A stretch of DNA of 64,000 nt from Diogma glabrata (Eukaryota; Arthropoda; Insecta; Diptera; Cylindrotomidae): contig OY856186.1 of NCBI GenBank assembly GCA_963693315.1, forward strand, positions 135,518,943 to 135,582,942, written 5' to 3'. Each line of letters begins with the position of its first letter. Positions within the stretch are counted from its first letter, which is position 1. The position numbers and the translations under genes are program-made. The notes beneath the pieces are model-generated. The model saw nothing but the letters and a program-made list of their open reading frames with translations. It ran no database searches and was not told the origin of the DNA. This document shows positions 1,259 through 60,337 of this stretch, piece after piece.

Positions 1259-1624
1259 TAAGAACTAAAATTCCATAAATTTTGTTATGTGTTCTTCGTC
1301 GTTTTTCTGTTGTTTTCGTAATCCAAACAATAATAATTAACTAGAAGGCAGTTTAATATTTACGGATGTGGTTGGTTTAATGTTTATGGACATATTGCAA
1401 TTTGTATGGTTAGAATAGAATCATTTGTCAACAACTAGCATAAAAAATAACTCAAATTTGCAAAAAGAGAATGAGTTGAATTTTATTTTGTAAATTTTAT
1501 TGAGAAAAAACTGGACCTTTTGTTGTTCGGGTACTCGACCAAAATATCCGGATATTAAATACCCGAAAAATCTTCCTAAATAGCCGGGTACCCGGGTACC
1601 CGGATACCAAGATTGCAAACACTA
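1259..1624. other. Intergenic; GC-rich CCCGGGTACCCGG tract
   Basis: No gene recognised. At 1541-1615 a palindromic run of GGGTACCCGGGTACCC lies in AT-rich DNA next to GATTGCAAACACTA, which could be the edge of a small TIR element, but the other end is not visible because of the gap. Confidence 0.35.
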
Positions 1625-1888
1625 ATAGGCACAAATCTGTATAACACTACGCGTATACTACAAGATAGGTATGGTAGATTTCAAGAAATAATTTTTTTCA
1701 GTGAAAACCAAATAATTTTTTTTTAAAGTGCGAAATTGTTAATTTCTGGGCTAAATTGTGATACTACAAGATAGGCACAGAACTGTCCCATCACTACACG
1801 TATACTACAAGATAGGTACGGTAGATTAAATATAAAATTTATAAAGAAAACAGATTGAGTGCGAGTACCAATCATTGTTTTAAATAAA

Positions 1889-2989
1889 ATGGAGACCAAA
1901 GAAGCTCTAAACGCATTAGCCGAACAAATTAAGGTTATTGTTGAGCAGGTGCAAAAAATGACATTATTATCAGAGGAACATGAAAGAACTCTGGCATTTT
2001 TAAAGCAGCACCCTGTTAGAAATTCTGAAGAGGTTAAAAAACCATCAGAAATTTTTCAACAAATAACGTTCGATGTGTTCAGAATACCGGATCCCATTAA
2101 ATCGATACCTGAATATGACGGTAATCGAAAACAATTAAACGCGTGGATTCAGACAGCAGAAGATACACTAAACGTGTTCGAGCCTCTCGTGTCTGAACCA
2201 CAATTTAAAATTTACTCACAAGCAGTGAGTAACAAAATAAAAGGTAAAGCGAAGGACGCACTTTGTTTAGCTGGAAACCCGCAAAGTTTCCATGAAATTA
2301 AAACAATTCTCCTTGAAACGCTCGGTGACAAACAAGAGTTGTCATTTTACAAATCACAGCTTTGGGCAACCAAGCAAAGTGAAACCATGACTGTACATTC
2401 GTATTTTAATAAATGTAATGAGAATGTACAGAATATAAAAACTCTGGCGAAACAAAATGCCATTTACAATAATTCATGGCAAGCCATAAATAATTTTATC
2501 GATGAGGATGCATTAGTAGCATTCATATCGGGGTTGAGAAAACCATACTTTGAATATGCCCAAGCGGCTAGACCAAAGAATATAGAAGAAGCTTATGCTT
2601 TTCTATGTAAATTTAATTCGAACGAAATAATTTCGGAAAATTCTAGAAAACCTATCAATCTAATTCAAAATAAAAATATTTATTCAATTCATAAACCAAA
2701 AGAATGGAATCAAAATAATTTAAATTATAACAATCAGTTTCAAAACAAGCAAAATTTAATTAAGGTTGAAGATGTTTCTATGAGATCAAGAAACACGATC
2801 AATAGAAAACACATTCCAATGGAAGTGGATACTTCAATGAGAAGTAGAAACCCATATAGTAGAAAACAAGTCAACACTCACGAAATCCAAGAAGATCATG
2901 AGGTTGAAGACTTCAATTTAGAAGACTTAAATTTAGAAGAACCTCTACCTGATTTCGAGGTTAATTCGGGAAATTTTCAACAGGTTTAG
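1889..2989 (+). pseudogene. gag: Ty3/gypsy (errantivirus-like) Gag, family 1 copy 1
   Basis: This frame encodes 366 residues of an LTR-retrotransposon capsid polyprotein, which would package element RNA in cytoplasmic particles. The ATG at 1889 is chosen because the frame upstream of it starts only with a GTG. Residues about 60-270 show a gypsy-type capsid pattern: IPEYDGN and LNAWI near the start, KIKGKAKDAL in the middle, then FISGLRKPYF and EEAYAFLCKF. The C-terminal third is basic, with repeated SMRSRN motifs, then an acidic tail (NLEDLNLEEPLP). I see no CCHC knuckle, as is common in errantiviruses. Compared with copy 2, a CAG to TAG change at 2987 ends the frame eight codons early. Protease follows in the -1 frame, so the usual gag-pol frameshift layout is kept. 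Confidence 0.8.
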
Positions 2990-3531
2990 CAGGAAGATAC
3001 GGAAGATTAAATTTTCTTCCATATTTAGTATGCAATGGCATACAACAAAACCAAACAATTAAATTATTATTAGATACTGGAGCAAATAAAAATATTATTA
3101 AGTCCAATATCCTTCACGGAACACAAATTGTAAAACAAAATATTTCAATAAAAAATATATTAGGTAATCATTTTGTAAATAAAAAAGGTAAATTTAATGT
3201 TTTAGGTAATAACATACCAGAACAAACATTTTACGAATTAGATTTTCACAAATTCTTTGACGGAATTTTAGGCTCACAATCATTAGCTAAATTAAATGCG
3301 AAAATTTACTATAGAACAAATACTGTTTTTTTAAATAACATTAAATCGGTATCAGCATACCTGAATTCCAGTTATATGAAATGGTTTCAGTCCTACAGAA
3401 TACAGATCATTTCAACAAGTTTAAATAATGTTGTAGATAGAGTTTCACCACCTTGTACAATCATTTTAAGTGTTATATCGTCGATACCAGGTACTTTATT
3501 ACGTTTTGTGGAATTCATAGTTTCGAAATGA
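2974..3531 (+). pseudogene. Retropepsin (aspartic protease) remnant, family 1 copy 1
   Basis: In the -1 frame relative to gag, the translation includes LLLDTGANKNII, the retropepsin catalytic loop with an intact DTG, followed by a flap-like region and GILGSQSLAKLN, which fits the second conserved block (xLGxD-type) of gypsy proteases. The enzyme would cleave the Gag-Pol polyprotein. The frame stays open to a stop at 3529-3531, but after about 3450 it no longer resembles Pol and runs into a GTCGGA minisatellite. RT, RNase H and integrase are absent, so this is a 5' fragment of an element. Confidence 0.7.
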
Positions 3532-3559
3532 AACAAAAATATTTTCTATTACACATAGA

Positions 3560-3660
3560 AGTCGGAGTCGGAGTCAGAGTCAGAGTCGGAGTCAGAGTCA
3601 GAGCAAAAGTCGGAGTCGGAGTCAGAGTCAGAGTCGGAGTCGGGGTCAAAGTCGGAATAG
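3560..3660 (+). repeat. GTCGGA/GTCAGA minisatellite
   Basis: Six-base units GTCGGA and GTCAGA repeat about 16 times and give a Val-Gly/Val-Arg reading frame that is unlikely to be protein. The same array is at 56030-56130. It marks the point where the family-1 pol is cut off. Confidence 0.85.
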
Positions 3661-3812
3661 GATCTTATTTTTCATAATTGTTTCAAACAACTTCCATTAC
3701 AAGAAATTTTAACTTTTTTTTTCTTAATAGTTCTATCCTTATATAAGAACTGAATCTAAAAAATTATGGTGCAAATTATGAAACTTTTTGCAATCCATAC
3801 AATTTTAGAGCG

Positions 3813-3888
3813 ATCTAGTTTCGAACCAATGAGAAAATTTTAAACTTTAAAAAAGTTTATCATTCTCATCAGGGCTAGCCGACTAGAT
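3813..3888 (-). ncRNA. Type III hammerhead ribozyme, unit 1
   Basis: Read on the minus strand, the order is AUCUAGU-C (stem III strand and cleavage C17 of a GUC site), GGCUAGCC (stem I, 3 bp with a UA loop, also self-complementary), CUGAUGA (core box 1), a stem II of about 43 nt, GAA (core box 2), then ACUAGAU, which pairs perfectly over 7 bp with the first strand. G10.1-C11.1 and A15.1-U16.1 are both satisfied. Stem II closes as GAAUGA with UCA...UUC (4-nt bulge) and has an AAACUUU/AAAGUUU tip. The predicted cut is between the complements of 3881 and 3880. A competing AUGAGAA/UUCUCAU pairing exists. Confidence 0.7.
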
Positions 3889-3917
3889 AAACTCTACCAA
3901 AAAATGTCAACGCTAAT

Positions 3918-3926
3918 GTATATAAA
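3918..3926 (-). promoter_or_regulatory. TATA box upstream of the ribozyme
   Basis: The minus strand reads TTTATATAC about 34 nt before the 5' edge of the unit-1 hammerhead at 3888. With the usual 25-30 nt TATA-to-start spacing, transcription would begin at the ribozyme edge. The motif is repeated in each full unit. This is inferred from sequence only. Confidence 0.45.
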
Positions 3927-4267
3927 CCAAAAATTAGGTTACAACTCTAGCGAAGTGTAAAAACAAAAAATTTACATAAACATACATTTAATAAATTCAG
4001 GTTTAGTCAATTAATTTCTCTGGTGATCACTGTTTTGTTATACTCTAGACATTCTAGTATTGAATAACAAACTTGTATCGGTGAGAGGAAGATGACTAGT
4101 CTTCACTTGTGTCTATTGACACATGATCAACAATTAATTCAGTAAATTATTTGTGATATAACATCACCCCGATGGAAAATCTCCCATCAAGAATAATATA
4201 AGAACTGAATCTAAAAAATTATGGTGCAAATTATGAAACTTTTTGCAATCCATACAATTTTAGAGCG

Positions 4268-4339
4268 ATCTAGTTTCGAACCAATGAGAAAATTTTAAAC
4301 TTTAAAAAAGTTTATCATTCTCATCAGGGCTGACTAGAT
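4268..4339 (-). ncRNA. Hammerhead ribozyme, unit 2, stem I deleted
   Basis: The sequence is the same as unit 1 except for a 4-bp deletion that turns the 8-nt stem I into AGCC between C17 and the CUGAUGA box. Stem III and both core boxes are intact, but no stem I can form, so self-cleavage in cis should be lost or very weak. Confidence 0.6.
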
Positions 4340-4718
4340 AAACTCTACCAAAAAATGTCAACGCTAATGTATATAAACCAAAAATTAGGTTACAACTCTA
4401 GCGAAGTGTAAAAACAAAAAATTTACATAAACATACATTTAATAAATTCAGGTTTAGTCAATTAATTTCTCTGGTGATCACTGTTTTGTTATACTCTAGA
4501 CATTCTAGTATTGAATAACAAACTTGTATCGGTGAGAGGAAGATGACTAGTCTTCACTTGTGTCTATTGACACATGATCAACAATTAATTCAGTAAATTA
4601 TTTGTGATATAACATCACCCCGATGGAAAATCTCCCATCAAGAATAATATAAGAACTGAATCTAAAAAATTATGGTGCAAATTATGAAACTTTTTGCAAT
4701 CCATACAATTTTAGAGCG

Positions 4719-4794
4719 ATCTAGTTTCGAACCAATGAGAAAATTTTAAACTTTAAAAAAGTTTATCATTCTCATCAGGGCTAGCCGACTAGAT
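4719..4794 (-). ncRNA. Hammerhead ribozyme, unit 3
   Basis: It matches unit 1 in all stems and core boxes, including the GGCUAGCC stem I. With unit 1 it could release unit-length RNA from a minus-strand transcript of the array. Confidence 0.68.
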
Positions 4795-5769
4795 AAACTC
4801 TACCAAAAAATGTCAACGCTAATGTATATAAACCAAAAATTAGGTTACAACTCTAGCGAAGTGTAAAAACAAAAAATTTACATAAACATACATTTAATAA
4901 ATTCAGGTTTAGTCAATTAATTTCTCTGGTGATCACTGTTTTGTTATACTCTAGACATTCTAGTATTGAATAACAAACTTGTATCGGTGAGAGGAAGATG
5001 ACTAGTCTTCACTTGTGTCTATTGACACATGATCAACAATTAATTCAGTAAATTATTTGTGATATAACATCACCCCGATGGAAAATCTCCCATGATGGTG
5101 ATCACTGTTTTGTTATACTCTAGACATTCTAGTATTGAATAACAAACTTGTATCGGTGAGAGGAAGATGACTAGTCTTCACTTGTGTCTATTGACACATG
5201 ATCAACAATTAATTCAGTAAATTATTTGTGATATAACATCACCCCGATGGAAAATCTCCCATCAAGAATAATATAAGAACTGAATCTATATATTATTCTT
5301 GATGGGAGATTTTCCATCGGGGTGATGTTATATCACAAATAATTTACTGAATTAATTGTTGATCATGTGTCAATAGACACAAGTGAAGACTAGTCATCTT
5401 CCTCTCACCGATACAAGTTTGTTATTCAATACTAGAATGTCTAGAGTATAACAAAACAGTGATCACCATCATGGGAGATTTTCCATCGGGGTGATGTTAT
5501 ATCACAAATAATTTACTGAATTAATTGTTGATCATGTGTCAATAGACACAAGTGAAGACTAGTCATCTTCCTCTCACCGATACAAGTTTGTTATTCAATA
5601 CTAGAATGTCTAGAGTATAACAAAACAGTGATCACCAGAGAAATTAATTGACTAAACCTGAATTTATTAAATGTATGTTTATGTAAATTTTTTGTTTTTA
5701 CACTTCGCTAGAGTTGTAACCTAATTTTTGGTTTATATACATTAGCGTTGACATTTTTTGGTAGAGTTT

Positions 5770-5845
5770 ATCTAGTCGGCTAGCCCTGATGAGAATGATA
5801 AACTTTTTTAAAGTTTAAAATTTTCTCATTGGTTCGAAACTAGAT
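5770..5845 (+). ncRNA. Hammerhead ribozyme, inverted unit
   Basis: The inverted full unit puts the same ribozyme on the plus strand. All parts are present: ATCTAGTC, GGCTAGCC, CTGATGA, the stem II region, GAAA and the closing CTAGAT. Transcripts from either side of the palindrome would therefore each meet a ribozyme in sense orientation. Confidence 0.68.
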
Positions 5846-5980
5846 CGCTCTAAAATTGTATGGATTGCAAAAAGTTTCATAATTTGCACCATAATTTTTT
5901 AGATTCAGTTCTTATATTATTCTTGATGGGAGATTTTCCATCGGGGTGATGTTATATCACAAATAATTTACTGAATTAAT

Positions 5981-6346
5981 TAGTTCTATCCTTACTTTAA
6001 AATATATCAAATTTACAAAGAGGCCTTAATTCGTGTTCTTGTTATATTTAATTTTAAAGATTTTTAGTCCGTCTACGAGTCTAACATTCGAATTTTTCAT
6101 CATTTTTCCGAACTTCAGTGGTTAAAATGTTTTGTTGATAAAAATTGTTCGAAAAAATAATGAGCAATTAGAATTTTAGTCGGACTAGAAATATTTATAA
6201 TTAAATATCTCAAGAACACGACTTAACGCCTCTTTGAAAATTTGATATATTTTACAGTAAGGATAGAACTATTAAAAAAAAGGTAAAAATTTAATTAGTT
6301 ATTTAAAAATTTTTTGCTACTGGAAGTTGTTTGAAAAAATTATGAA
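5981..6346. repeat. Right part of a foldback element split by the ribozyme array
   Basis: Together with 3676-3741 this rebuilds the uninterrupted foldback seen at 56142-56560. The TAGTTCTATCCTTAC arm at 5981 is mirrored by AGTAAGGATAGAACTA near 6254-6270, and the outer ACAACTTCCA block is mirrored by TGGAAGTTGT near 6322. The ribozyme array landed inside its left arm. Confidence 0.7.
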
Positions 6347-6925
6347 AAATTTGAATTTTGTAATATTTTGATTTTAAAATTAATTACAAAAACAATTAAT
6401 TAATTTTTTTCAAACGATTAACTAATCACCTATCAAACAAAAAAAAAGTTTGATGCAAATAGTGTAGCCGTTCTTGAGAAATTTAATTTTAAAGTTAAAT
6501 CGGATGATCGGATTGGCAGAATCAAACTATGCATTTTAAAAAAATTGTAGAATAAGTTGAATTTTTTCATATTACATGCCAAGTTTCAAGAAAATCAAAA
6601 ATGGTCAAGTTTTCACAACTCGTTCTAGAACACATTCTTCTTCTATTCAGTCTTCTATATAACTTTTAACAACTCAATCATTTTTGTAGTCTAGTACTAC
6701 TTAAAAATTTCAGTCAATCGATTATTTGTTTATAAGTGGTAAAACGATCGCTGACTTTCAGTTACTTTAAAAACTGTAGTATTGACGAGCGTAGAGTTTT
6801 GTTTAAAAACACATTCTATCTGGGAATCAGAGTATATTTATCGTCAAAAACCAACTATTTCATTCATATATTTAAATATAGAAAAATCTAAGACTTGCAA
6901 GACAGGCAAAATTAAATATAAATCT
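6347..6925. other. AT-rich spacer shared by both duplication copies
   Basis: No gene or terminal repeat recognised. The same sequence is at about 56765-57325 in copy 2 with few differences. Confidence 0.5.
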
Positions 6926-7499
6926 TCTATATCTTCTATATAAATAAAATTCGATGTCTGTCTGTCTGTCTGTCTGTTTGGGATAAGCCCCGAAACGGCT
7001 GAATTGATTTAGATGAAACTTGACATACATAAAGATAGGAATGCCAGGTATGTCATAGGCTACTTTTTTTCATAGAATTTATAGTTTTTATAATAGAATT
7101 CTCCATTACTTAATTCATAGCAACGAGTTTGCCTAAATGTTGATTACGTACAATTGGTTTTTATTTGTTCTAATTATATATATGTACATATATGAGTATA
7201 ATTCATAACAACGAGTCTGCCTAAATGTTAATTAATTATATATGTTCTAATTATATATGAGTATGTAAGTATGTTTTTATTATATAGAGACAAATTTGTA
7301 TTTTGTTGTATATGTTTTAAATCCTAACTTGCAAGATTTTCTAATACATATGTTGTTTATAAAGATTTTTTATTTAGAGAAGAATTAATGTGTGTTGTAT
7401 GTATTGTATTTAGTTTATGTACATATTTGGTTTATTTATTTCGAGAGAAATTAGTAATTCGTTGTATATGTTTTAAATCGTAATACATAAAGATTAAAT
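6926..7499 (+). mobile_element. Helitron-like 5' segment with (TGTC)n
   Basis: TCTTCTATATAAATAAAATT is followed by ATGTCTGTCTGTCTGTCTG and a conserved tract ending GATGAAACTTGACATACA. Many insect Helitrons begin with TC plus a TATATA-rich lead and a TGTC microsatellite of this kind. I could not find a convincing CTRR end with hairpin at a fixed distance and no Rep/helicase is encoded, so the class is tentative. Copy 2 has it at about 57326-57899. Confidence 0.4.
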
Positions 7500-8520
7500 T
7501 TATTGCGTAGCTACTGGGGGGATCCCGTGGGCTTTGACCCTCCACTCCCCCTCTCCCTTCGCAAGGAAACGCACTCATAATCTTTTTATCCAACTTTAAT
7601 ACAGCTACTATCCATCACAATACAATTTCTTCTAATCTATTATGCATGCACCTTTTGCTTAACTAATTTCACAAAAACACATGGATTAAACATCCATATG
7701 TTTTTGTAAAATTAGTTAAGCAGAATGTGCATGCATAAAAGATTAAAGAAGAATGTATTGTGATGGATAGTAGCTCCTATAGTATTCTATATAACATGGT
7801 AGAAGTAGTACTATATACCAGTAGTACTATATACTATAGTGGTATATAGTACTACTGTTAGTAGTACTATATACCATGGTACTATATAGTATATACTATA
7901 TACTATACTACCAAAGTACTATATACCATAGTACTATACACCATGGAGATAGGCATGCTTAACCAAGGTGTTTTTGTAAATTAGTTAAGCAGAAGGTGCA
8001 TGCATAATAGATTATTATTAAAGAAGAATGTATTGTGATAGATAGTAGCTCCTATTATAGTATTCTATATACCATAGTAGAAGTAGTACTATATACCAGT
8101 AGGACTATATACTATAGTGGTATATAGTACTACTGGTACCGTATAGTATATAGTACTACTGTTATTTATTTAGGAATAATATTAATAAGAGTAATAATAA
8201 TAATAATAAGAGTACTACTGTTAGTAGTACTATATACCATCGTACTATATAGTTTATACTATATACTATACTACCACAGTACTATATACCATAGTACTAT
8301 ATACAATGGAGATAGGCATGTTTAATCCAGGTGTTTTCGTAAATTAGTTTAGCAGAAGGTGCATGCATAATAGATTAGAAGATATTGGATCGTGATTGAT
8401 AGTAGCTGTATCAAAGTTGGAAGAAAAGATTAAGAGTGCGTTCGCGTGCGGAGGGAGAGAGTGGGGGAGGGGGGAAAGGGGGGGGGAGCGAAGCCCGCAG
8501 GAGATCCCTGTAACGCGAAG
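7500..8520. repeat. Complex inverted-repeat element with TAGTACTATATAC clusters
   Basis: The outer inverted arms are about 7563-7680 (CGCACTC, CAACTTTAATACAGCTACTATC, TATGCATGCACC) and their reverse complement at about 8325-8440. They enclose internal modules near 7700, 7970 and 8335 that share GTTAAGCAGAAGGTGCATGC, and a dense run of the near-palindrome AGTACTATATAC. No coding frame. G/C-rich tips (CCCCCTCTCCC and GGGGGAGGGGG) cap both ends. Copy 2 equivalent: 57900-58925. Confidence 0.65.
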
Positions 8521-8615
8521 AAAATCTCTTTTAATTCAATTAACTACAAATTGAACATAATTTCCACTCATCTATCTGTGTTGTTTCGTCCAATAAAATT
8601 ATTCTATTCAATTAA

Positions 8616-9168
8616 CGGTCTATTCAAGTTTGGCTCTTAACAGCAACACAAGTCCTTGGTTTTGACTGCAGTTAAAAAGATTAATTTATTATAACAAGGA
8701 AATTATTTAATTAATTAATTCATGGAAATATTTGGCTGGAAACATATACACTTCGATTTTTTGATGCCAAAAAAATACTCGTGGAAGACTTAGGAGTCTT
8801 TTCTTTTGAAGGACAACACAGATGCCGAATCAACATTGAATAACTTAAGTATTTTTTTATGTTGTATATTAGTTCATTTGATAAATTAAATTGGTTTTTT
8901 CTGATTTGTTAAGTTAGTTTGGTCAGTAAATTACATAAATGTATATTTTGAGTTTTGCAAAAGAAATGATGATTAATGTTGATTAAATAAAAAAAATTAA
9001 TTGTGCATTTTAGTTTCGTTTTCTAATTTATTAAGAAAGTGTTTTTGTGTTTTGTGCTGTTGTTTGTGATTTTTTTAAAGGAATGAAAAGAAACTGCATC
9101 GTGGAAAATTTTCTGATAAAGGCCCGTCCCACCCACAAATTAGCGCTGCGTTAAAAGGTATGTTATAT
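8616..9168 (+). mobile_element. Probable 5' LTR of gypsy family 2, copy 1
   Basis: This 553-bp stretch recurs in direct orientation at 24331-24891, beyond the integrase of the same element, and is followed immediately by a TGGCAT primer-binding site. It contains AATAAA-type sites near 8986. The true 5' edge is uncertain because the inverted-repeat element at 7500-8520 abuts it, and the canonical TG...CA ends are not clear. Confidence 0.65.
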
Positions 9169-9169
9169 T

Positions 9170-9187
9170 TGGCATCCCATTGCGGGG
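9170..9187 (+). promoter_or_regulatory. Primer-binding site, gypsy family 2
   Basis: TGGCATCCCATTGCGGGG starts two bases after the end of the repeated LTR segment. A PBS pairs with the 3' end of a host tRNA (ending CCA) to prime minus-strand DNA. I cannot name the tRNA with certainty. Confidence 0.6.
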
Positions 9188-10022
9188 GCACACCCAGAAA
9201 AAACAATATCTTTATCAGATAATTTCTGCGAAATAGTTTCACTTTTCGATTTCTTTAATTTTTGTGGTTTAATGTGTTTTAGTTTAATATTTGTTATAGT
9301 ACAATGCATGCTAGTGATTTTAAGTAATTTTTTTTGGTATTTTTCAAAACGTGATAGTGGTTAAGGTGAATAAGTTTAATGTTGGTCGTGAATATTGTGT
9401 ATTGTGGCGAGTTTTGTTTATTAATTTTAAGTTTAGTAATAGTGTAAAACGAAAAAAAGTATATATTACGAAAATTAAGTGAGATGAAAAAAAATAACTA
9501 AAGATTAGTGGTAAAGAAATTTAACACGTGGCCACGAGAATCGTGTATACTAATATTGTGTTTCTATAGTGCATAATGTATTAATTTAGTGTTAATTTAT
9601 TATATATATAGTTTACATTAGTGGATATTTTGTGTGATATATTGATAGTGTATTATACTGTGTATTATAGTGTGTATTATAGTGTATATTTATAGTGTGT
9701 AAAACATTATTATTATAGTGTGAAGTGTAAAATATTGTATTATAGTGTAAAATATTGGACAATAGTGAATAACTTAGGAAGCCGGTTAAAAAAAAAGAAT
9801 TTTCTAAAATTTCTGGAATGTGCGAGATGCAAATAAAATAAAGAAGGAAACGCATGCAGAATAAATCTAAAATATATTGTTCCTTGTTTTTGTTCATTAT
9901 TGAAGTTATTTAGTTAGTAATTTAATTATAGTAGTTGTTATTTTTATAAAATGTAAAATTAAATAAATTAATAAAGTAAATTAAAAAAATAAGCGCTTTT
10001 GTACTATTAAATAAACGTGTAT
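9188..10022 (+). other. Leader of gypsy family 2
   Basis: Untranslated AT-rich leader between PBS and gag, with a patch of short GTGTATTATAGTGT repeats at about 9640-9760. No gene. In copy 2 the same leader is split by the 701-bp TIR element. Confidence 0.55.
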
Positions 10023-10979
10023 GAGCAATTTCACGAAGATTCAACAACGCTTTGACTTGACCCCTTTTAATTTTGATTATTTTTTGTTTATAGATAGTCT
10101 TTGATAAATAAAAAATACAAGTTCTCTTAGAATTTTTTTTTTCGACCAGGGGTCTTCACAGGGTGCCCCTCAATTTTTGTTATTTTGTGATGTGAGTGCT
10201 TTTTGACGAGCGATTGTAGAAAAACTACTGAATCGATTTTCATAAATGATATGTCGTTGAATAGGTATTAGAACAAAGTTTTTAAAAATGTAAACTGTTA
10301 ATTTTTTGAAATAATTTTTAACGGTGCGATAAACCAAATTAAAAAGGGTCGAGTCAAAATGTCGCAAAATTTTGCTGAACTTGACTGAAATTGCTTTTTA
10401 AAAAGTTCATTTAATAATAAAATATTTGATATTTAACATAAAAAAAAAATCTGAATCTAAAAATCGCCATTTTTATAATTTTCCTTCAGAACAAAAAAAT
10501 CTGATTCCCGACAGTCATATGCACAACGAATTTTATCTCTAAAACAAAAAATCATGCTAGTCCTTAACTTTCACAAGTTGTTAGATATAAAATAAGCTTC
10601 AATTTAGTTTAAAAAAAAAAAAAAAAAAGGGCTGTGCCATCTTTTTTTCAATTACACCGTTTTTTTCTTATGTTACACCGTTAAAAATTATTTCAAAAAA
10701 TTAACAGTGTACATTTTTAAAAACTTTGTTCTAATACCTATTCAACGACATATCATTTATGAAAATCGATTCAGTAGTTTTTCTACAATCGCTCGTCAAA
10801 AAGCACTCACATCACAAAATAACAAAAATTGAGGGGCACCCTGTGAAGACCCCTGGTCGAAAAAAAAAATTCTAAGAGAACTTGTATTTTTTATTTATCA
10901 AAGACTATCTATAAACAAAAAATAATCAAAATTAAAAGGGGTCAAGTCAAAGCGTTGTTGAATCTTCGTGAAATTGCTC
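10023..10979. mobile_element. 957-bp foldback element with 304-bp TIRs
   Basis: Terminal inverted repeats 10023-10326 and 10676-10979 (304 bp each, few mismatches) start GAGCAATTTCACGAAG. The element is flanked by TGTAT at 10018-10022 and 10980-10984, a 5-bp target duplication. It has no transposase, so it would depend on enzymes in trans. It lies in a segment of about 1.16 kb that is missing from copy 2. Superfamily not assigned. Confidence 0.8.
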
Positions 10980-10984
10980 TGTAT

Positions 10985-11571
10985 ATAAATTTGAATTTTT
11001 TTTTATAGTTGTAATTGGTCGACTGAGTCTTCATCCAGTCTTACAGTTTCTTAGCCACGTATTAGCAACGGTGTAAAGGTCAAATAGAAACAAGGTGAAG
11101 ACGAGTTCGTATTAGCAATTGAGTTGTGTATTTTGTATTAACAAAATTTTGACCAATATTCAACAACTCGTTTCATTGCGAATTATTTTTGTTTGTTACT
11201 TGTGATTTTCGTTTAGAATGCAAATCTTAATATGTCTTAAGTTTTTGCAATTGAAGTCATTAGGACAAAACAAATACATGATAAATAAGTTTGATTTTTG
11301 TGTTTGTTTTTGTTTTACACAGCATTAAGGGGTTTAAAAGCATTAAATATTTTTTTCATATTTCAGTTAGCTTATATTTACGTTTTATCATTTAAATAAT
11401 TTAAAAATTTGGCTATAAATAAAAAAAAATTCAATTAATAATAAAACAAATTTATTTTTCTTATTCAATATTTATTTTTCTTAAGTCCTGTTGTTCTTGT
11501 CGCATATTTCTTACCAAGCATTGACTTGCGGTTGTGTACAAATTGTAAAAACAATATTTTTTTGAATAATT
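10985..11571 (+). other. Distal leader of gypsy family 2
   Basis: AT-rich untranslated region before gag. From about 11139 it aligns again with copy 2 (61100 onward). No gene seen. Confidence 0.5.
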
Positions 11572-12801
11572 ATGGCGCAGGATACAGGGTATATATATGA
11601 ACCACTTCATTTGAGCGAAGAAGAGAGGAAACATAAGCTATATGTTAGGGGTATTGAGGGTTTGGGTACAGCCCGAAGCGAAACGGCCGCATTACGAAAT
11701 GCAATTTGGAAAGAAGATGTAGAAACTGATATTGTTACTCTCGTCAACATCCAAAATCCGACGGAAGAATTAGCAAAAGGTCGTTCTATGTTAGCAATAC
11801 TTACAGACGAATTTTATCTCGCCGAAAAAAAAAATAATTTGGATATTTTAGGCATAATCTGTTCTAGAGTAGCGCTTTGGATCAATCGTGTGTCAAGACT
11901 AAGGGAACCAAATATTACAGGGCATCAGGAGGTACTAAACGGATTGAAAGAACTGCATAAACATATAGTTTCATGCAAGCAAAACGAAGTACCAGTTCAA
12001 GGTCAGAATACTCGAACTTCTATAGCAGAGTCAAATCAAAACATCAGATTATCAATTGAGAAGCAGAGGGTCAACAATGATACTGATGAGCTAACAAACC
12101 AAATGGCTAGGATGTGCTCTGGAAGAGGAAGAGGACGAGGAAGTTTATCTCCTTCTAGCCTGAATGTTTCTTTTTTAAACCCCATACACTCTTTACGTGA
12201 TTCCGTAGAACGTAGAATAGGAAGTTCAAACAATTCTGAACCCAGATCAAGTTCCGAACACGAAAAACGTCAAGTAAATGGTCCAAAACCTGATGCGATG
12301 TACAGTCGTTATGATTTTCATTCACGTCCCCAAGTTCAAAAGGGAGATTATAGCAACTCAAAACATGTTTATAGGTGGGACATACAGTTTAGTGGAGATG
12401 GCCAAGGTCTATCATTAAATGAATTTTTGACTCAAGTGGAAGTTTATGCTCGCGGCGAAGACGTTAGAGAACCTGTACTTCTTTCAAACATCCATTATCT
12501 TCTAAAAGGAAAAGCTGAACGTTAGTACTGGGGTAGTTTGGAATCCTTTAATAGTTGGGCCTCCTTTGTTGAAAGCATTAAAAGTGAGTTTCTACCGCGT
12601 CACTATGATTTTTTACTGAGAGAAGAGATACACAACCGTTTAAAAGACCGCTCTGAACCATTTGCCAATTTCATTACTGATCTCAAAGTGTTGTTTAGAA
12701 AAGCGCATCCTCCTTTGGATGAAAATTTCAAGGTATATGTAGTACAGAAAAACATGCTTCCTCAATATAGTTTCAACCTTGCCATGACCAACGCTAGAAC
12801 G
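11572..12801 (+). pseudogene. gag: Ty3/gypsy Gag, family 2, N-terminal part (copy 1)
   Basis: From the ATG at 11572 the frame gives 317 residues, a TAG at 12523-12525, then continues in frame to the hAT insertion. An N-terminal helical region is followed by an Arg-Gly patch (GRGRGRGS) and then a retrotransposon capsid domain starting near VYRWDIQFSGDG, with LNEFL and VLLSNIHYLLKGKAER before the stop and SFNSWASFV and FLPRHYDFLLREEI after it. The TAG sits where gypsy capsids usually have an aromatic residue (before YWGS) and is present in both duplication copies, so it predates the duplication. The capsid would assemble particles in the cytoplasm. The gene is cut at 12801 and resumes at 17774. 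Confidence 0.82.
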
Positions 12802-12951
12802 CAGTGGCGTAGCTAGCATGGGTGGCACCCGGGGCGGATATTGTGGTGTCACCCCAAAAATAAAACTGTCAATAATAATAAAAAGCCGATAAACGTAATT
12901 TATAATTTTTTTTAATTAATACAAATGAGCATTATTATTAATAAGCTACAT

Positions 12952-13075
12952 TTTTTTTTTAATAAAATGTGTTGTGTAGTAGGAATTACAATATGTGTCC
13001 CAATAACACATAAAAACCTTTTAAGACCAAGGTCCCACAACAACATACGTTCAAAGGTGTTGATGGACGTAAATC
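12952..13075 (-). mobile_element. LINE 3' tail inside the hAT
   Basis: On the minus strand: a GTTGTTGTGGGACC block, CTTAAAAGG, TATGTGTTATTGGGACACA, then ACACAACACATTTTATT and poly(A). It is the same 3' tail as at 600-685 and 41083-41667. The copy at 62930-63050 is its duplicate in copy 2. Confidence 0.65.
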
Positions 13076-13564
13076 TTTCTTTTTTTGTTTTTTTATATTT
13101 TTTGTTAAAGAATGGATAACTAAACAAAAAATCCTATCACTGACAAAATATGACAAAGGCCAATATTTTATGATAGAATAGAGAAAATAAAAGTAAATTA
13201 AAAAGTAAATAGCAAATTTTTACAAAAATTTGCTGAAACAAAACAAAAATGTAGTTGCCAATAATCCAGCCGGTTGCATTTTCCTTGATCCCGTGACGCA
13301 CTGTCTTTCTTGAAGATTAAAGCCCACACATAGTTATATGAAGGCTCGTCTCTTCAAGGAAGCAATAACGTCTCATCATCAAGGATTATTTCACAGCTAA
13401 GATTGAGGGTGCTACCGTTGACTGAATACAGTTAATCCGCTACCACCCCTAAGATGTCACCTTGACTAGTGATGTCTCACTGCTATTGCCAGTGGTATGT
13501 GATATCTCACGTTAACTCGTATGTCAATAGCATGGACTGGAGTACGCGGGGCTGTCACACCCGT

Positions 13565-16260
13565 AGACCAAAATAAAAAAAATTTTCAAAACAATTAAAA
13601 CTGATCCCTCCATGCGGGTCATTATTGCCCGCAAGTAATTTTCAATTAATTTTAATTTGCTGAAACTCCTCTCACACGAAGCCACTAATACGCAAATAGT
13701 CATAAATAACTTTAGTGCGACCGTAGGATTTGGAAGAAATTCCGAAAAATCCCATTCTACGACGAATTTCAAAAGTTCTAGGTACACCCAGCTAGAAAGT
13801 GTAACATTGGCCGCTTTTAAATGCCTCCTCAACCTTGGTATCTCTATGAGGAGCTTTGTTGCCGATACCTCATTATAAAAACTGGTAAATTTTGGAACAG
13901 ATAATTTCAACTCTTCACTGTTCGCCAAAAGCTAAGTGTTTTTCTGCACAACCTCGAAAAATGAAGCTAAATCTTGAACTGACTTAGGTCTAGCTCTGAG
14001 TTCAACACTGAATCGGTCAAGACATTCCAACATGTCCTTTTTAAGTTGAGCTCTCAGTGTCAGTCCTACATCAGGGGCAAACTCACCAGCCATTGGTTTT
14101 TTGCGTTTTTACGACGAATTCGGCTTTCCATTGGAATGTCATAGTCCTCCGATTTTTTCGCAGCAAGAATTATTGCCTCTTCTACAATGTGACTTTGTTA
14201 CGAATTGACTCTATTTTTGTAACTAATTGATCAATATTCAAGCTCTTGCTTTGCAATCCAATCTGAGCACAGATATTATTTCCCTTAGAATATCATTCCA
14301 AAACAAAAGATAGCAAAGAAACGTAAAATCACATGCTGCATGGATAAGGTTCTGCGCAGCGCTTCTAGTATCTACATTTTCTTGTTGATCACTTAACTTC
14401 TCAATTGCAGCCACAATCCCATCAAAATTTTTGGCCAATACTTTTACTGCAGCATAATGAGCACTCCAATGCGTTGTTAAGAGTCTTTTAACAGTTGCTT
14501 TGTTGTGTTTAACAAGCACTTCGGCTGGTCGAAGCAGAAAAACATGTAAAAATGGCTTCCACTGTTTCGAAAAACGTTACACAAGCTATATTTTGTGCAA
14601 CTGAGTGTTGGCCACATAAATTAATTGAATGATCTATACAGCCGACAAAAATTGCTTTGTAAGTTTTTGCTTTAATGATAGCTTGCACTCCTCCATGTAT
14701 ACTACACATAACAGCTGCATTATCATAACCTTGGGAACGACAATTCATAACATCTATACCTTTTCAAGATTTTTACACTGAAAAATACATGTCCTATTTC
14801 CAATCGAAATGCAGTTGTCTCAACCTCACCGTGCGGGCAGATATGGCGAATCGAACTACGAGATTGATTCAACAACTGTAAATTATAAACCGACAATCAC
14901 ATGAAATATTTATGTGAAAATAAAATATAGTTCAATTAATCTCAAATACTTAAATTTTAAAATGAAAAATTCATGATATAAGGCCAAAGAAATATGTTTT
15001 CATGGAAATAGTTATTAGCTTTATTCAAGTACTGTTATATTGGATATAACACTTTATATTTTAAATAAACCTCTTTCTGTTGTCAGGAGAATGTTACTGA
15101 GTACTAAGTAGTTGTCCCAATCACGGTGAAATTGTTTGTAAATATTTTTTCTTTGCATGAATAATAAACTGCCAACTTCGAGATGAGGTTGTCATTACTT
15201 CAAATTTTTTTTCAGTGTAAGAATTTCATCGCTTAAATCAGCGGCTTTTTTCCATGTAAAGGAAAAAATCCAAGTAATACTTCCTTGATTTCCACTTTTC
15301 TAGCATCAATTTTCACATAACGAATCACTTGTGATATTTGATCAATATGTGAATTGTCAGGTGTGCTATCAAACATAATTCCTAAATATTTAACCGATTT
15401 AATTTCGTTGACAAGCTTAAACGTGGTTTGCTAAATCATTTATGAACTCATTTTGTATATCTGGTGACAAATATGATACTTTTGGTGATTTACAATGCTC
15501 CAAATTCAAAATGTGTTCTTTTGACACTACATCATACTTTGACAATAGATTGACTAGTTCTAAAAAATGGCCTTTATTTGAAGAACTTTGTCCTTCATCA
15601 TGTCAACGAAATGCTAGGTTTTGTTTAGATAAAAACAAAGTTATATCCAATAATCTGGATAAAAAACGTTTCCACTTCTGTTTTTTATTATATATTAATT
15701 GCAAGGCTGCGTCTCCTATCGTTTTATGAAATTTTAACCTCATTTCCAAAGCTTGCCAATTTTAAAAGTTCTCCAGATGTTCATTTAAAGTTTCATGGTC
15801 GGTTACTTTGGGATTTAGTTTCCACCACTTCTGAAATCCAGTCGCAAACGACCCTTCTATATTTTGAAAATGTTCACTTCCTTTTTTTATTATTTCAATG
15901 CGAACATTATCAGAGACTACCTAGTATATTCCAATGTGATACATATCGTAAGTCCTGAAGTGATTCACCCATGCAAATACTGTCTTCGATAGTAGAAGCA
16001 TTAGCAGCATTATCACTATCATTTTCAGTATTTCGTTCTAATTCGTTTAGCTTATCATTATTAATTCTGTATTGTCACTGTTGCTTTCCGAAGATGAGCC
16101 AATGTTCTCTGAAACATTCGTTGCATCAACGTGAGAATCAGTTTCTTTTGATGAACCTTGAATGTCATCTGGTTTTGTAACATATTTATAGATGAATCCA
16201 GATATGCTCTGAACTGCATCTATTTTAGCCTGTTTGGTTTTTCTCTACTGGAATCCACTT
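13565..16260 (-). pseudogene. hAT transposase, ZMYM1/DUF4371-type, degenerate
   Basis: Read from right to left the minus strand gives, in several frames, pieces of a hAT transposase: FATGFQKWWKLNP and LSKQNLAFR followed by HDEGQ near 15600-15900, YLGIMFDSTPDNSHIDQ near 15350 (RNase H-fold start with an Asp), CRSQGYDNAAVM at about 14740 (second Asp), SAHYAAVKVLAKNF, and near 13650-13850 the C-terminal dimerisation block VALKLFMTICV with SCERSFSKLKLI and NYLRAIMTRM. The enzyme would excise and insert the element in the nucleus. Stops, frameshifts and a nested insertion at 14776-15217 prevent expression. Confidence 0.85.
14776..15217. mobile_element. 442-bp TIR element nested in the hAT transposase
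   Basis: It begins CACTGAAAAATACATG and ends TTTTTTTTCAGTG, flanked by TA on each side (TA|CACTG...CAGTG|TA). It interrupts the transposase between the DSTPDNSHIDQ block and the CRSQGYDNAA block. The first 35 bp recur exactly at 44345-44379. CACTG ends and a 2-bp TA duplication would fit a non-autonomous CACTA/EnSpm-like element, but the class is uncertain. Confidence 0.6.
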
Positions 16261-20406: not shown

Positions 20407-20481
20407 AAAAAATTGTTTTTTGGTGTATAGCCTATTTAATTAACAAATATTTTAACAAAAATATTTTACATAAAAAACTTT

Positions 20482-20509
20482 GACCGGTTTCGACGCTTAT
20501 CGCATCATT
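20482..20509 (-). ncRNA. Degenerate hammerhead-like motif, PLE-B minus arm
   Basis: On the minus strand: AUGAUG, a small GAU-AAGC-GUC hairpin, GAAA, CCGGUC. This follows the type I minimal hammerhead order reported for PLEs, with a short palindromic ACCGGU stem III, but C3 is A and A9 is C, both of which should damage catalysis. Confidence 0.35.
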
Positions 20510-20631
20510 TTCAAAAAGTTGAATATGAAACACAGAATTTTAATAGAAAAAATTTTAAAACAAAGAAAAAATTGAAAAATAAAACTTTACCGAAAAACTA
20601 AACGCTACTTTGATTTTTGCTGTCATATGAT

Positions 20632-21405
20632 TTAATTTATAATTGAGTTATAAAAATTATGAATGTAGTTTGAATCTGTTTGTTTATTTAAGGAGTTAGG
20701 ACTTTTTTTAATGTGAAGCATTTCCAACATTTGTAATTTGTTAAAATTATTCTCCCTCTCTAAAATTCTAACATTGTCCATAGTTATAATATGTTTAGCT
20801 GATCTTAAATGCATAGACAAAGCGCTAACATCACTATCGTTATTTAATGAGGCATCTTTATTATGTTGATAAATCCGTTTGCTTAAAAGTTGAGTAGTAC
20901 GGCCAGTATAAGTTGCAGGACAATCACAAAAAGTTTGGTAAACAACATTACTTAAAAACTGTTTTTAAATTTTATCTTGTAAACTGGAAAAAAATTGATT
21001 TTGAAAATTTGAGCACGATAAACCAACAGTATTAATATCGTATTGTTTTAACAAGCAGCTAATTTTTTCAAATAAATTTTTGACATATGGAATCGAAACA
21101 AATTTCTTTTTTCTTTCTTCAGAATTATTTTCAAAAACTGGAACAAAAGTATTATCATGTGTTGTAGTTTCTTGAACAGCATTTTTAAAAATAGCATCTT
21201 TAATACCGCGTTTTATTAAAAACAAAGGGTAGCCATTTAAAAGAAGAATATCAGTTAACATTTTAAAATTTTTATGATGAAATTTCAAATCTGAAAGACG
21301 TATAACTTTTTCAGCTAAAAGAAACACAGTATTTTTCTTATGGTTCAAAGGAAGCCACGACGCAAAATTTAGATATCTGCCAGACCACGTTTGCTTATGA
21401 TACAA
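20632..21405 (-). pseudogene. PLE-B RT thumb/linker plus GIY-YIG endonuclease, minus copy
   Basis: From the inner end the frame begins TWSGRYLNFASWLPLNHKK, which matches the post-catalytic part of PLE reverse transcriptase, then a linker with VSIPYVKNLFEKI, a nonsense codon near 20962-20964 (CAA to TAA), then VVYQTFCDCPETYTGRTTQ, the GIY-YIG domain, and a C-terminal SLNKQTDSNYIHNFY. The fingers/palm with the catalytic Asp are missing. The intact protein would nick DNA and prime reverse transcription. Confidence 0.75.
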
Positions 21406-21448
21406 ATCAGTACTTAAAGAGCCATCACTATTATGGATAATAATAATA

Positions 21449-22030
21449 AAACGCGGTATTAAAGATGCTATTTTTAAAAATGCTGTTCAAGAAGCTACAA
21501 CACATGATAATACTTTTGTTCCAGTTTTTGAAAATAATTCTGAAGAAAGAAAAAAGAAATTTGTTTCGATTCCATATGTCAAAAATTTATTTGAAAAAAT
21601 TAGCTGCTTGTTAAAACAATACGATATTAATACTGTTGGTTTATCGTGCTCAAATTTTCAAAATCAATTTTTTTCCAGTCTACAAGATAAAATTCAAAAA
21701 CAGTTTTTAAGTAATGTTGTTTACCAAACTTTTTGTGATTGTCCTGAAACTTATACTGGCCGTACTACTCAACTTTTAAGCAAACGGATTTATCAACATA
21801 ATAAAGATGCCTCATTAAATAACGATAGTGATGTTAGCGCTTTGTCTATGCATTTAAGATCAGCTAAACATATTATAACTATGGACAATGTTAGAATTTT
21901 AGAGAGGGAGAATAATTTTAACAAATTACAAATGTTGGAAATGCTTCACATTAAAAAAAGTCCTAACTCCTTAAATAAACAAACAGATTCAAACTACATT
22001 CATAATTTTTATAACTCAATTATAAATTAA
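21449..22030 (+). pseudogene. PLE-B linker plus GIY-YIG endonuclease, plus copy
   Basis: The frame is open from the spacer junction to a stop after position 22027. It lacks the nonsense codon of its mirror copy, so the GIY-YIG domain (VVYQTFCDCPETYTGRT and QLLSKRIYQHNKD) and the C-terminal HLRSAKHIITMDNVRILERE are uninterrupted. The RT part is absent, so it is a 5'-truncated insert. Confidence 0.75.
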
Positions 22031-22153
22031 ATCATATGACAGCAAAAATCAAAGTAGCGTTTAGTTTTTCGGTAAAGTTTTATTTTTCAATTTTTTCTTT
22101 GTTTTAAAATTTTTTCTATTAAAATTCTGTGTTTCATATTCAACTTTTTGAAA

Positions 22154-22181
22154 ATGATGCGATAAGCGTCGAAACCGGTCA
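22154..22181 (+). ncRNA. Degenerate hammerhead-like motif, PLE-B plus arm
   Basis: Mirror copy of the motif at 20482-20509, with the same two core departures. Being identical in both arms, the departures predate the inverted duplication or belong to the family. Confidence 0.35.
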
Positions 22182-22265
22182 AAGTTTTTTACGTAAAATA
22201 TTTTTGTTAAAATATTTGTTAATTAAATAGGCTATACACCAAAAAACAATTTTTTTAATATAAAA

Positions 22266-22297: not shown

Positions 22298-22323
22298 AAC
22301 GATATGAGATATAACGAAAACGA

Positions 22324-23285
22324 CCGGCACTCTCACGGTCGCATTTGTTGAGGTAGATCAAAAAAATTTTCTGTACTTGTGTGTTCTATTAATATCTTGA
22401 ACAAGTTCGTGAATCAGCAAAATCCGACACGTGGTTAAGAAACTAGAGGCTTTTTTCTGAAAAAAATTGATTTTTTAAAACCGTTATAACGGCCGTTTGG
22501 ATACTAATATTTCAAAAAATTTAACAAATTTAGAATTTTTGAAATCTTTTTTATCAATTTGTTTTAAAAATAGACCTCTGCAGTTAGAGGTTCCTGAGTG
22601 AGCGGCTCCAACAAAAAAGTTTGCAAAAAAATTTTTTTTTGAAACAACCGGCACTCTCACGGTCGCATTTATAAGGCCAGATCAAAAAACCTTTTTTAAA
22701 AATGTGTGTTTTATTAATATCTTGGACAAGTTCGTAAATCAGCCCCATCCAACACATGGTTAAGAATCTAGAAGCTTTATACTAGAAAAAAACTCTGTTT
22801 TTTAGATCCGTTATAACGGCCATTTGGATTCTAATATTTTTAAAAACTTCATAAGTTTAGAATCTTTGAAACTTTTTTAATCAGTTTCTTTAAAAAAAAA
22901 GACCTCTGCAGTTGGAGGTTTCTGGGTGAGCGGCTCCAACAAAAAAGCTTGTAAAACAGAAAATGTGTTTAAATCAACCGGCGCTCTCACGGTTGCATTT
23001 GAGGAGCCAGATCAAAAAACCTTTCTTAAAAATGTGTGTTTTGTTAATATCTTGGACAAGTTCGTAAATCAGAAAAATCTGACACATGGTTAAGGAACTA
23101 TAGGCCTTATACTAAAAAAAAAAGTGGTTTTTTTAATCCGTTATAACGGCCGTTTGGATACTAATATTTTTAAAATCTTCATAAATTTAGAATCTGCGGA
23201 AACATTTTAATCCGTTTCTTATAAATATAAACCTCTGCAGTTAGAGGTTTTTGACTTGTTGGCTTCAACAAAAAAGTTTGCAACC
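22324..23285. repeat. Three ~325-bp tandem minisatellite units
   Basis: Units start at 22324, 22648 and 22978 with CCGGCACTCTCACGGTCGCA (CCGGCGCTCTCACGGTTGCA in the third). Each contains GTTATAACGGCC, GACCTCTGCAGTT and AGAGGTT landmarks. No coding content; divergence is visible between units. Confidence 0.85.
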
Positions 23286-53813: not shown

Positions 53814-54354
53814 TGATGTTTTAGACTCGTTTAGTGTAACAGTGTTTTTCAGTAGTGAATAAAAACTAGTGATTAGTGAATCCGCGGATCGAATTTATTT
53901 TTATATTTTTGTGAAACGTTTCCAGCTAAAGGGCAACCGTTGGAAGACTTGTGATTCCACCATTTCACAATACGAGGCTATCATCAGAACCTACAGGACG
54001 CACGACTGGATGAAATTAACAGGTAACATTTTTTATAATTTGTTTTGGAGTGAAAAATTATTTTGGTTATACTAACGTGTGAAACTACAAGATAGGCACA
54101 AATCTGTATAACACTACGCGTATACTACAAGATAGGTACGGTAGATTTCAAGAAATAATTTTTTCAGTGAAAACCAAATAATTTTTTTTTAAAGTGCGAA
54201 ATTGTTAATTTCTGGGCTAAATTGTGATACTACAAGATAGGCACAGAACTGTCCCATCACTACACGTATACTACAAGATAGGTACGGTAGATTAAATATA
54301 AAATTTATAAAGAAAACAGATTGAGTGCGAGTACCAATCATTGTTTTAAATAAA

Positions 54355-55475
54355 ATGGAGACCAAAGAAGCTCTAAACGCATTAGCCGAACAAATTAAGG
54401 TTATTGTTGAGCAGGTGCAAAAAATGACATTATTATCAGAGGAACATGAAAGAACTCTGGCATTTTTAAAGCAGCACCCTGTTAGAAATTCTGAAGAGGT
54501 TAAAAAACCATCAGAAATTTTTCAACAAATAACGTTCGATGTGTTCAGAATACCGGATCCCATTAAATCGATACCTGAATATGACGGTAATCGAAAACAA
54601 TTAAACGCGTGGATTCAGACAGCAGAAGATACACTAAACGTGTTCGAGCCTCTCGTGTCTGAACCACAATTTAAAATTTACTCACAAGCAGTGAGTAACA
54701 AAATAAAAGGTAAAGCGAAGGACGCACTTTGTTTAGCTGGAAACCCGCAAAGTTTCCATGAAATTAAAACAATTCTCCTTGAGACGCTCGGTGACAAACA
54801 AGAATTGTCATTTTACAAATCATAGCTTTGGGCAACCAAGCAAAGTGAAACCATGACTGTACATTCGTATTTTAATAAATGTAATGAGAATGTACAGAAT
54901 ATAAAACTCTGGCGAAACAAAATGCCATTTACAATAATTCATGGCAAGCCATAAATAATTTTATCGATGAGGATGCATTAGTAGCATTCATATCGGGGTT
55001 GAGAAAACCATACTTTGGATATGCCCAAGCGGCTAGACCAAAGAATATAGAAGAAGCTTATGCTTTTCTATGTAAATTTAATTCGAACGAAATAATTTCG
55101 GAAAATTCTAGAAAACCTATCAATCTAATTCAAAATAAAAATATTTATTCAATTCATAAACCAAAAGAATGGAATCAAAATAATTTAAATTATAACAATC
55201 AGTTTCAAAACAAGCAAAATTTAATTAAGGTTGAAGATGTTTCTATGAGATCAAGAAACACGATCAATAGAAAACACATTCCAATGGAAGTGGATACTTC
55301 AATGAGAAGTAGAAACCCATATAGTAGAAAACAAGTCAACACTCACGAAATCCAAGAAGATCATGAGGTTGAAGACTTCAATTTAGAAGACTTAAATTTA
55401 GAAGAACCTCTACCTGATTTCGAGGTTAATTCGGGAAATTTTCAACAGGTTCAGCAGGAAGATACGGAAGATTAA
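54355..55475 (+). pseudogene. gag: Ty3/gypsy Gag, family 1 copy 2
   Basis: Same gag as 1889-2989. Here a CAG to TAG change at 54823-54825 and a one-base deletion near 54905 (AAAAA to AAAA) break the frame, so copy 2 splits into 54355-54825 and 54999-55475. Conversely, the CAG near the 3' end that is TAG in copy 1 is intact, and the frame runs to EDTED and a stop. The two copies therefore decayed independently after duplication. Confidence 0.8.
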
Positions 55476-55950
55476 ATTTTCTTCCATATTTAGTATGCAA
55501 TGGCATACAACAAAACCAAACAATTAAATTATTATTAGATACTGGAGCAAATAAAAATATTATTAAGTCCAATATCCTTCACGGAACACAAATTGTAAAA
55601 CAAAATATTTTAATAAAAAATATATTAGGTAATCATTTTGTAAATAAAAAAGGTAAATTTAATTTTTTAGGTAATAACATACCAGAACAAACATTTTACG
55701 AATTAGATTTTCACAAATTCTTTGACGGAATTTTAGGCTCACAATCATTAGCTAAATTAAATGCGAAAATTTACTATAGAACAAATACTGTTTTTTTAAA
55801 TAACATTAAATCGGTATCAGCATACCTGAATTCCAGTTATATGAAATGGTTTCAGTCCTACAGAATACAGATCATTTCAACAAGTTTAAATAATGTTGTA
55901 GATAGAGTTTCACCACCTTGTACAATCATTTTAAGTGTTATATCGTCGAT
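55440..55950 (+). pseudogene. Retropepsin remnant, family 1 copy 2
   Basis: Protease in the -1 frame with LLLDTGANKNII, as in copy 1. A four-base insertion (CGAT near 55947) shifts the frame before the minisatellite. Confidence 0.68.
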
Positions 55951-56029
55951 CGATACCAGGTACTTTATTACGTTTTGTGGAATTCATAGTTTCGAAATGA
56001 AACAAAAATATTTTCTATTACACATAGAA

Positions 56030-56130
56030 GTCAGAGTCGGAGTCAGAGTCAGAGTCGGAGTCAGAGTCAGAGCAAAAGTCGGAGTCGGAGTCAGAGTCAG
56101 AGTCGGAGTCGGGGTCAAAGTCGGAATAGG
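56030..56130 (+). repeat. GTCGGA/GTCAGA minisatellite, copy 2
   Basis: Same array as 3560-3660, with one GTCAGA/GTCGGA change at its start. Confidence 0.85.
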
Positions 56131-56141
56131 ATCTTATTTTT

Positions 56142-58925: not shown

Positions 58926-59021
58926 GAAAATCTCTTTTAATTCAATTAACTACAAATTGAACATAATTTCCACTCATCTATCTGTGTTGTTTCGTCCAAT
59001 AAAATTATTCTATTCAATTAA

Positions 59022-59575: not shown

Positions 59576-59632
59576 TTGGTATCCCATTGCGGGGGCACAC
59601 CCAGAAAAAACAATATCTTTATCAGATAATTT

Positions 59633-60333: not shown

Positions 60334-60337
60334 ATTT

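Follow-up and report, generated by a model that had tools for sequence, protein, structure and literature searches.

In the accessible part of PMC7229834, Penelope-like elements (PLEs) are called a strong candidate for moving the retrozymes of animals, with the mover itself stated as open, and the accessible text of PMC7761336 says that retrozyme repeats show no motif that reveals their helper. PLE inserts are described as having inverted pseudo-LTRs, an optional tail, and a target duplication (PMC3846280, available section). In work with a purified PLE, both strands of the target were cut and extended, and synthesis began at two internal RNA sites, one on each side of the tail; the start sites did not differ between the strands, and in vitro the PLE hammerhead showed no activity in the absence of protein (PMC11167929). 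The insert described here, from the dipteran Diogma glabrata, belongs to a family that is very probably a non-autonomous, retrozyme-like element inserted by PLE-type machinery, as judged from the sequences of its copies.

The analyzed stretch of DNA, referred to as the window, is 64,000 nucleotides long. The insert occupies positions 3742-5980 (corrected bounds), and it is organized as follows, together with its target and the tail that lies between the two presumed start sites, A and B:

3728-3741, no strand: left copy of the 14-bp target duplication, TAGTTCTATCCTTA
3742-4196, plus strand: unit 1, 455 bp; its start is an end of type A (unit position 1)
4132-4196, minus strand: tail of unit 1, 65 nt (unit positions 391-455), bordered by start sites A and B, with hairpin folds
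4197-4647, plus strand: unit 2, 451 bp; 4 nt are missing where the hammerhead-like motif is predicted to be cut
4648-5093, plus strand: unit 3, unit positions 1-446, followed by a jump back to about 280
5096-5271, plus strand: partial unit, positions 280-455, the source of a 169-bp repeat
5272-5288, plus strand: final 17 nt of the forward arm, including the 13-nt palindrome spacer (5276-5288)
5289-5980, minus strand: inverted arm, which terminates at an end of type B (unit position about 391)
5981-5994, no strand: right copy of the 14-bp target duplication
56197-56210, no strand: empty target in the paralogous segment

The tandem forward units of 455, 451, and 446 bp come first, and are followed by the partial unit, which produces the 169-bp repeat within the insert, and by the inverted arm. 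Unit 2 is 451 bp long because it lacks 4 nt. The arms of the palindrome (4583-5275 and 5289-5981) are 693 nt long each, 100% complementary, and separated by the 13-nt spacer. Both arms of the window copy carry an identical 169-bp rearrangement, and its center is nearly symmetrical, unlike those of most other copies. The unit, read as a 455-bp circle, has a GC content of 30% and a longest open frame of 38 codons, and encodes neither a reverse transcriptase nor a GIY-YIG endonuclease; the family thus has the tandem, non-coding, low-GC repeats of a retrozyme. Weak matches of the unit to microRNA families of Rfam at the center of the palindrome were set aside, as any perfect hairpin would give them.

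The target sequence TAGTTCTATCCTTA flanks the insert on both sides, and is present as a single copy in the paralogue. The paralogous flanks are 99.1% and 98.7% identical to those in the window, and most units at the loci that were read are identical to the window unit or one to two changes away from it. The empty paralogous site, the approximately 1% divergence of the flanks, and the similarity of the units therefore indicate that a multimer was inserted in the window recently, after the segmental duplication. An earlier note on this DNA had reported the ~455-bp units, the 14-bp duplication at both ends, the single copy of the site in the paralogue, and the lack of protein coding, all of which were confirmed, and its view of a recent multimer insertion newer than the segmental duplication is supported by the empty site and the flank divergence. 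The segmental duplication spans 1617-13903 and 54082-63881, with pieces that are 95-99% identical. The target is located in a hairpin-like host repeat (3667-3741 with 5976-6350), the halves of which are about 86% complementary.

The earlier note had also proposed a genome-wide search for other loci with tandem units and target duplications, and many were found. The search with the unit gave at least 208 matches, with 40 of 384 candidates scored. A pattern of the motif core and its flanks occurs at 3,761 + 3,636 = 7,397 places in the 1.33-Gb genome, against 8 + 5 = 13 for a backwards control, and a second pattern, with the outer helix III strands fixed and the core free, occurs at 7,540 places against 81 in the control. 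Among the listed matches to the second pattern that came with letters, 3 of 34 lie outside the family; the 31 members retain CTGATGA in 25 cases, GAAACTAGAT in 26, and GGCTAGCC in 25. At four loci (L101-L104), a partial unit with a damaged motif is located inside another dispersed repeat, and these stretches are 96-99.6% alike including their flanks.

The ends of the element were compared in 37 array copies at 36 places, namely 35 fetched stretches (L031-L065) and the window. One stretch holds two copies, L049 and L050 have common flanks and look like one duplicated insertion, and the fetched loci are the best-scoring matches, which biases the sample toward young copies. Both ends are visible in 31 of the 37 copies, and in all 31 the forward units precede the inverted ones. 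One end, A, is always located at unit position 1 (within 7 nt), whereas the other, B, falls within about 380-400, and mostly within 388-395. The left end is A in 17 copies and B in 14, and none of the 31 has two like ends. For L031 and the second copy of L033 the B end was taken from a BLAST match, because the exact-anchor script had missed it. As a result of the A/B rule, an extra tail of about 65 nt is present at one end only. Sites A and B flank this 65-nt stretch, the predicted fold of which contains hairpins closed by AUUCAGU/ACUGAAU. The remaining six copies have one recognized end: L034, L042, L056, L060, and L065 are truncated or irregular, and the fetched stretch of L059 ends within the copy. 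In pattern-search loci with both strands, minus precedes plus in 22 of 22 among the places listed from the start of one contig.

Target duplications, in the longest reading for each copy, measure 9-15 bp in 31 of 31 copies and 12 bp in 14, some readings taking in a few bases that are common to the insert. Individual scripts missed or shortened duplications, one of them failing to find any in three copies and giving 6-7 bp in four others; with a stricter script, a duplication of at least 9 bp was detected in 26 of 31 copies, against 3 of 928 mismatched pairs of flanks. The duplications have an AT content of 82% (in the set from one script), and the flanks 72%. Diverged units of 451-453 nt, about 82% identical to the window unit, occur in L091, L092, and L100. 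Within the diverged set of ten further stretches, both ends are visible in four copies, all four with A and B, and the flanks of L091 and L092, read by eye, contain duplications of 12 to 14 bp.

The centers of the arrays vary. In 24 of 31 copies the arms end more than 20 nt apart in unit position, and near-symmetrical centers (within 20 nt) occur in seven, against two to three expected from random positions. The arms meet with a 0-10 nt overlap or 1-49 nt of filler, with the one exception of a 26-nt imperfect overlap. The mean arm length in the 31 copies is 2.2 units for the A arm and 2.5 units for the B arm, and the longest arm has 6.65 units. A snap-back of one cDNA would fit the nearly symmetrical center of the window copy, but not the two fixed ends of all two-ended copies, and was retained as a possible detail only.

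These features bear on three other origins of the arrays. LINE insertions can show target duplications of 9-15 bp and inverted arms, and twin priming is expected to fix one end only. Insertion by a LINE-type enzyme, through target priming and twin priming, would thus account for the duplications and the arms, but is very unlikely given that each of the 31 copies has two fixed ends that differ from one another. It is more improbable still that the element is a foldback-like DNA transposon, with inverted repeats that hold tandem subrepeats: such an element would have the long inverted arms, the internal tandem repeats, and the target duplications, but its terminal inverted repeats should match. 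This is already contradicted by the difference between the A and B ends in all 31 copies; moreover, the number of units varies freely between the arms and the length of the duplication is variable. An assembly artifact, or ordinary satellite DNA, is scarcely credible. Chimeric reads can give rise to sequences such as a perfect palindrome with 693-nt arms, but the arrays are found at many loci with differing flanks, duplications, and centers, and the paralogous site is empty.

The same end signature is found in the PLEs of this genome. GIY-YIG PLEs are abundant, with at least 151 matches when 150 of 9,037 candidates were scored. Copies repeated in tandem every 2,934 bp, with open frames of up to 880 codons (G000:C1468:10099-16557), appear to be a sign of recently active PLEs. 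The outer ends were read in ten head-to-head PLE pairs. In nine of them the two ends differ, one falling within reference positions 319-340 and the other within 360-370, which leaves a tail at one end only; the tenth pair is unreadable at one end, and the degraded L081/L082 and L089/L090 were judged by eye. The tail offset is 26 nt in five of the nine pairs and 20-51 nt in the others, compared to 65 nt in the element described here. The earlier suggestion that the element may use a PLE reverse transcriptase thus gains support, at the level of sequence, from an end signature common to 31 of 31 arrays and 9 of 10 PLE pairs. The PLE copies that were read are located mostly in TA repeats, unlike the arrays, and their target duplications could therefore not be judged; the single pair outside TA repeats showed no target duplication.

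The window itself contains a PLE copy, which serves as a comparator outside the element:

20407-22255, no strand: two head-to-head GIY-YIG PLE fragments, with arms of 812 nt that are 99% complementary

This copy is irregular, with one end cut short and the right end in a TA repeat, and no target duplication was found at it. A protein search with the PLE fragment of the window gave no match; one with a window frame gave two, one of them from a dragonfly. The unit has no clear similarity to the PLE 3' regions of the window copy and of five fetched copies from several lineages, and the helper may perhaps be a PLE of a lineage beyond those read. The purified PLE starts within a stem-loop, which resembles the structured start region of the unit, with no sequence similarity between the two. 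A 330-bp tandem repeat, with about three copies that are 82% alike, adjoins the PLE fragment (22317-23283), and a scan found no hammerhead core in it. An inverted pair of 304 nt, 99.7% identical, is located at 10023-10326 and 10676-10979.

From the tandem head-to-head arms, the two fixed and always different ends, the target duplications, the variable centers, and the same end rule in local PLEs, we infer the following scheme, including its enzyme, the sequence of its steps, the circular form of the template, and the cutting of RNA by the motif. RNA in the motif-bearing sense would be present as a multimer or circle of 455-nt units, and a PLE-type protein would make staggered cuts in AT-rich DNA, with about 11-15 nt between the cuts in the two strands. 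Both target 3' ends would prime reverse transcription, one from site A (unit position 1) and the other from site B (about 391), the structured 65-nt tail lying between these sites. Each cDNA would be extended through up to several units, round the circle or along the multimer, and the two cDNA ends would be joined head to head, often with a short overlap or filler. It is the length of the arms that calls for a circle or multimer as the template.

The choice between these templates is close, and a linear multimeric transcript of an existing array, instead of a circle, has a probability only a little below even. The 169-bp rearrangement is present in both window arms, as if one irregular multimer had been copied twice. 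Had two cDNAs been made independently from a monomer circle, this sharing would be left unexplained, which counts against the mechanism as drawn for such a circle. The window copy thus suggests a multimeric template, or a later exchange between the arms. In L041 a unit with the same substitution is present in both arms, and the lengths of the A and B arms are correlated among the 31 copies (r 0.45). Variants are, however, mostly private to single units, and the templates were therefore close to one master sequence, as fits a uniform circle, although a uniform master array would also do. The same applies to the subfamilies: among the places listed from the start of one contig, each of 25 multi-unit loci contains one subfamily, with no mixing. 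That analysis used 68 of 100 rows, most neighborless rows having been dropped, and a single insertion, later duplicated, appears to account for 2 of the 25 loci.

The hammerhead-like motif of the unit is present four times in the window insert:

3813-3888, minus strand: motif of unit 1 (helix III strands, palindrome GGCTAGCC, CTGATGA, GAAAC)
4268-4339, minus strand: motif of unit 2, with helix I shortened to AGCC
4719-4794, minus strand: motif of unit 3
5770-5845, plus strand: motif of the inverted arm

Read in the sense in which the 3' ends point outward, the motif is AUCUAGUC^GGCUAGCC-CUGAUGA-helix II-GAAACUAGAU. It has a core and a GUC site that we take to be canonical hammerhead features, seven pairs in helix III, and four pairs in helix II, which become seven to eight if one G is left bulged. 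Full pairing of helix I, an 8-nt palindrome, requires two copies, so that a two-copy (double) hammerhead form is nested in tandem RNA. Only the open-helix-III motif was found, and no type I hammerhead. An animal retrozyme that combines an open helix III with a palindromic helix I of 8 nt would be out of the ordinary. The 82%-identical units show no change in the core, the palindrome, or either strand of helix III, a conservation that is partly imposed by the search pattern. IMG/VR contains no exact match to the motif.

It is rather likely that the motif truly cuts RNA, and a hammerhead identity is plausible, though unproven. The alternative, a doubtful one that nevertheless has to be weighed, is that the motif is inert or coincidental, with PLE machinery moving a multimeric non-coding RNA in which the conserved region is a long hairpin. 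The Rfam hammerhead models match neither the window (at gathering scores), nor the unit (E up to 10), nor the diverged unit. In the lowest-energy folds the core is taken up by pairing to a strand downstream of it: the partner of CUGAUGA is CUCAUUGG in the window unit and UUAUCGG in the diverged unit. These folds are favored by 14 to 27 kcal/mol over the dimer hammerhead. In addition, no trace of eroded cleavage ends was found genome-wide at the predicted cut. Against an inert motif stand the canonical core with its GUC site and 7-bp helix III, equaled in 65 of 762,917 dinucleotide shuffles when both strands were scanned; scoring was confined to the open-helix-III form, and the chance over all forms is therefore higher. 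As in PLEs, the motif is also located upstream of the start sites; its distance to A is 139 nt in the unit, and the corresponding distance in the PLE is about 95 nt (by eye). Rfam misses the motif of the PLE 3' region too, and the PLE hammerhead was inactive in vitro without protein (PMC11167929). The canonical core and its rarity in shuffles speak for the hammerhead claimed in the earlier note, and the lack of an Rfam match and the core buried in the predicted folds speak against it. The note had named two findings that together would count against its reading, no covariance-model hit and no other tandem loci; the hit is indeed absent, but other tandem loci exist.

The 4-nt loss in unit 2, which sits exactly at the predicted cut, was considered as a trace of cleaved RNA and rejected, as it is seen in 1 of 66 copies with a shortened helix I. 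More than half of these 66 copies read GACC. Four GACC copies that were fetched are 96-99.6% alike including their flanks, contain a single partial unit, and lack the G that begins GAAA; judged from these sequences, they look like a fragment carried by another repeat.

A joint reading of these observations is tentative, and we regard it as somewhat less probable than a linear template. Animal retrozymes would be satellites of PLEs, and one PLE dimer with a single 455-nt RNA circle would make one cDNA per target strand from two structure-marked sites, giving a head-to-head rolling-circle palindrome. The palindromic helix I would have the effect that only multimers cut themselves, while monomer circles stay closed. 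The copies also suggest, as a possible rule, that PLEs themselves use a separate start site on each target strand. This goes beyond the in vitro study, which saw no strand difference (PMC11167929), and the joint reading is weakened for that reason.

The element resembles several described systems in part. Metazoan non-LTR retrozymes, as characterized in the accessible part of PMC7229834, have a type I hammerhead, whereas in the unit here helix III is open and helix I palindromic. Their units are reported there as 150-450 bp, and those of 451-455 bp here are just above this range; the target duplications of 9-15 bp agree with the more than 4 bp given for metazoan non-LTR retrozymes. The arrays here are head-to-head with two fixed ends, and the word 'inverted' is absent from the available text of PMC7229834 on metazoan retrozymes. 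We found no report of two-ended head-to-head retrozyme insertions in the accessible portion of the open-licence literature. Plant LTR retrozymes (PMC7229834, same part) have the same open-helix-III topology and non-autonomous tandem units. They are characterized by LTRs, a primer binding site, and a 4-bp duplication, but here no LTR arrangement was seen, the sequence is AT-rich, the arms are head-to-head, and the duplications are 9-15 bp instead of 4 bp. The type III hammerheads of termite and dipteran genomes and of HDV-like RNAs, in the available text of PMC7936874, also represent an open helix III in animal sequences, but they have a long helix I and II, in contrast to the 8-nt palindrome that forms helix I here. 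The GIY-YIG PLEs, as far as described in the accessible parts of PMC3846280 and PMC11167929, have head-to-head inserts, a tail at one end, two internal start sites, and AT-rich targets like those of the element, and a hammerhead-like motif upstream of the start sites. The element differs from them in its lack of protein coding, its unrelated sequence, and its many short tandem units per arm. The insertion signature ties one retrozyme-like family to PLE-type insertion.
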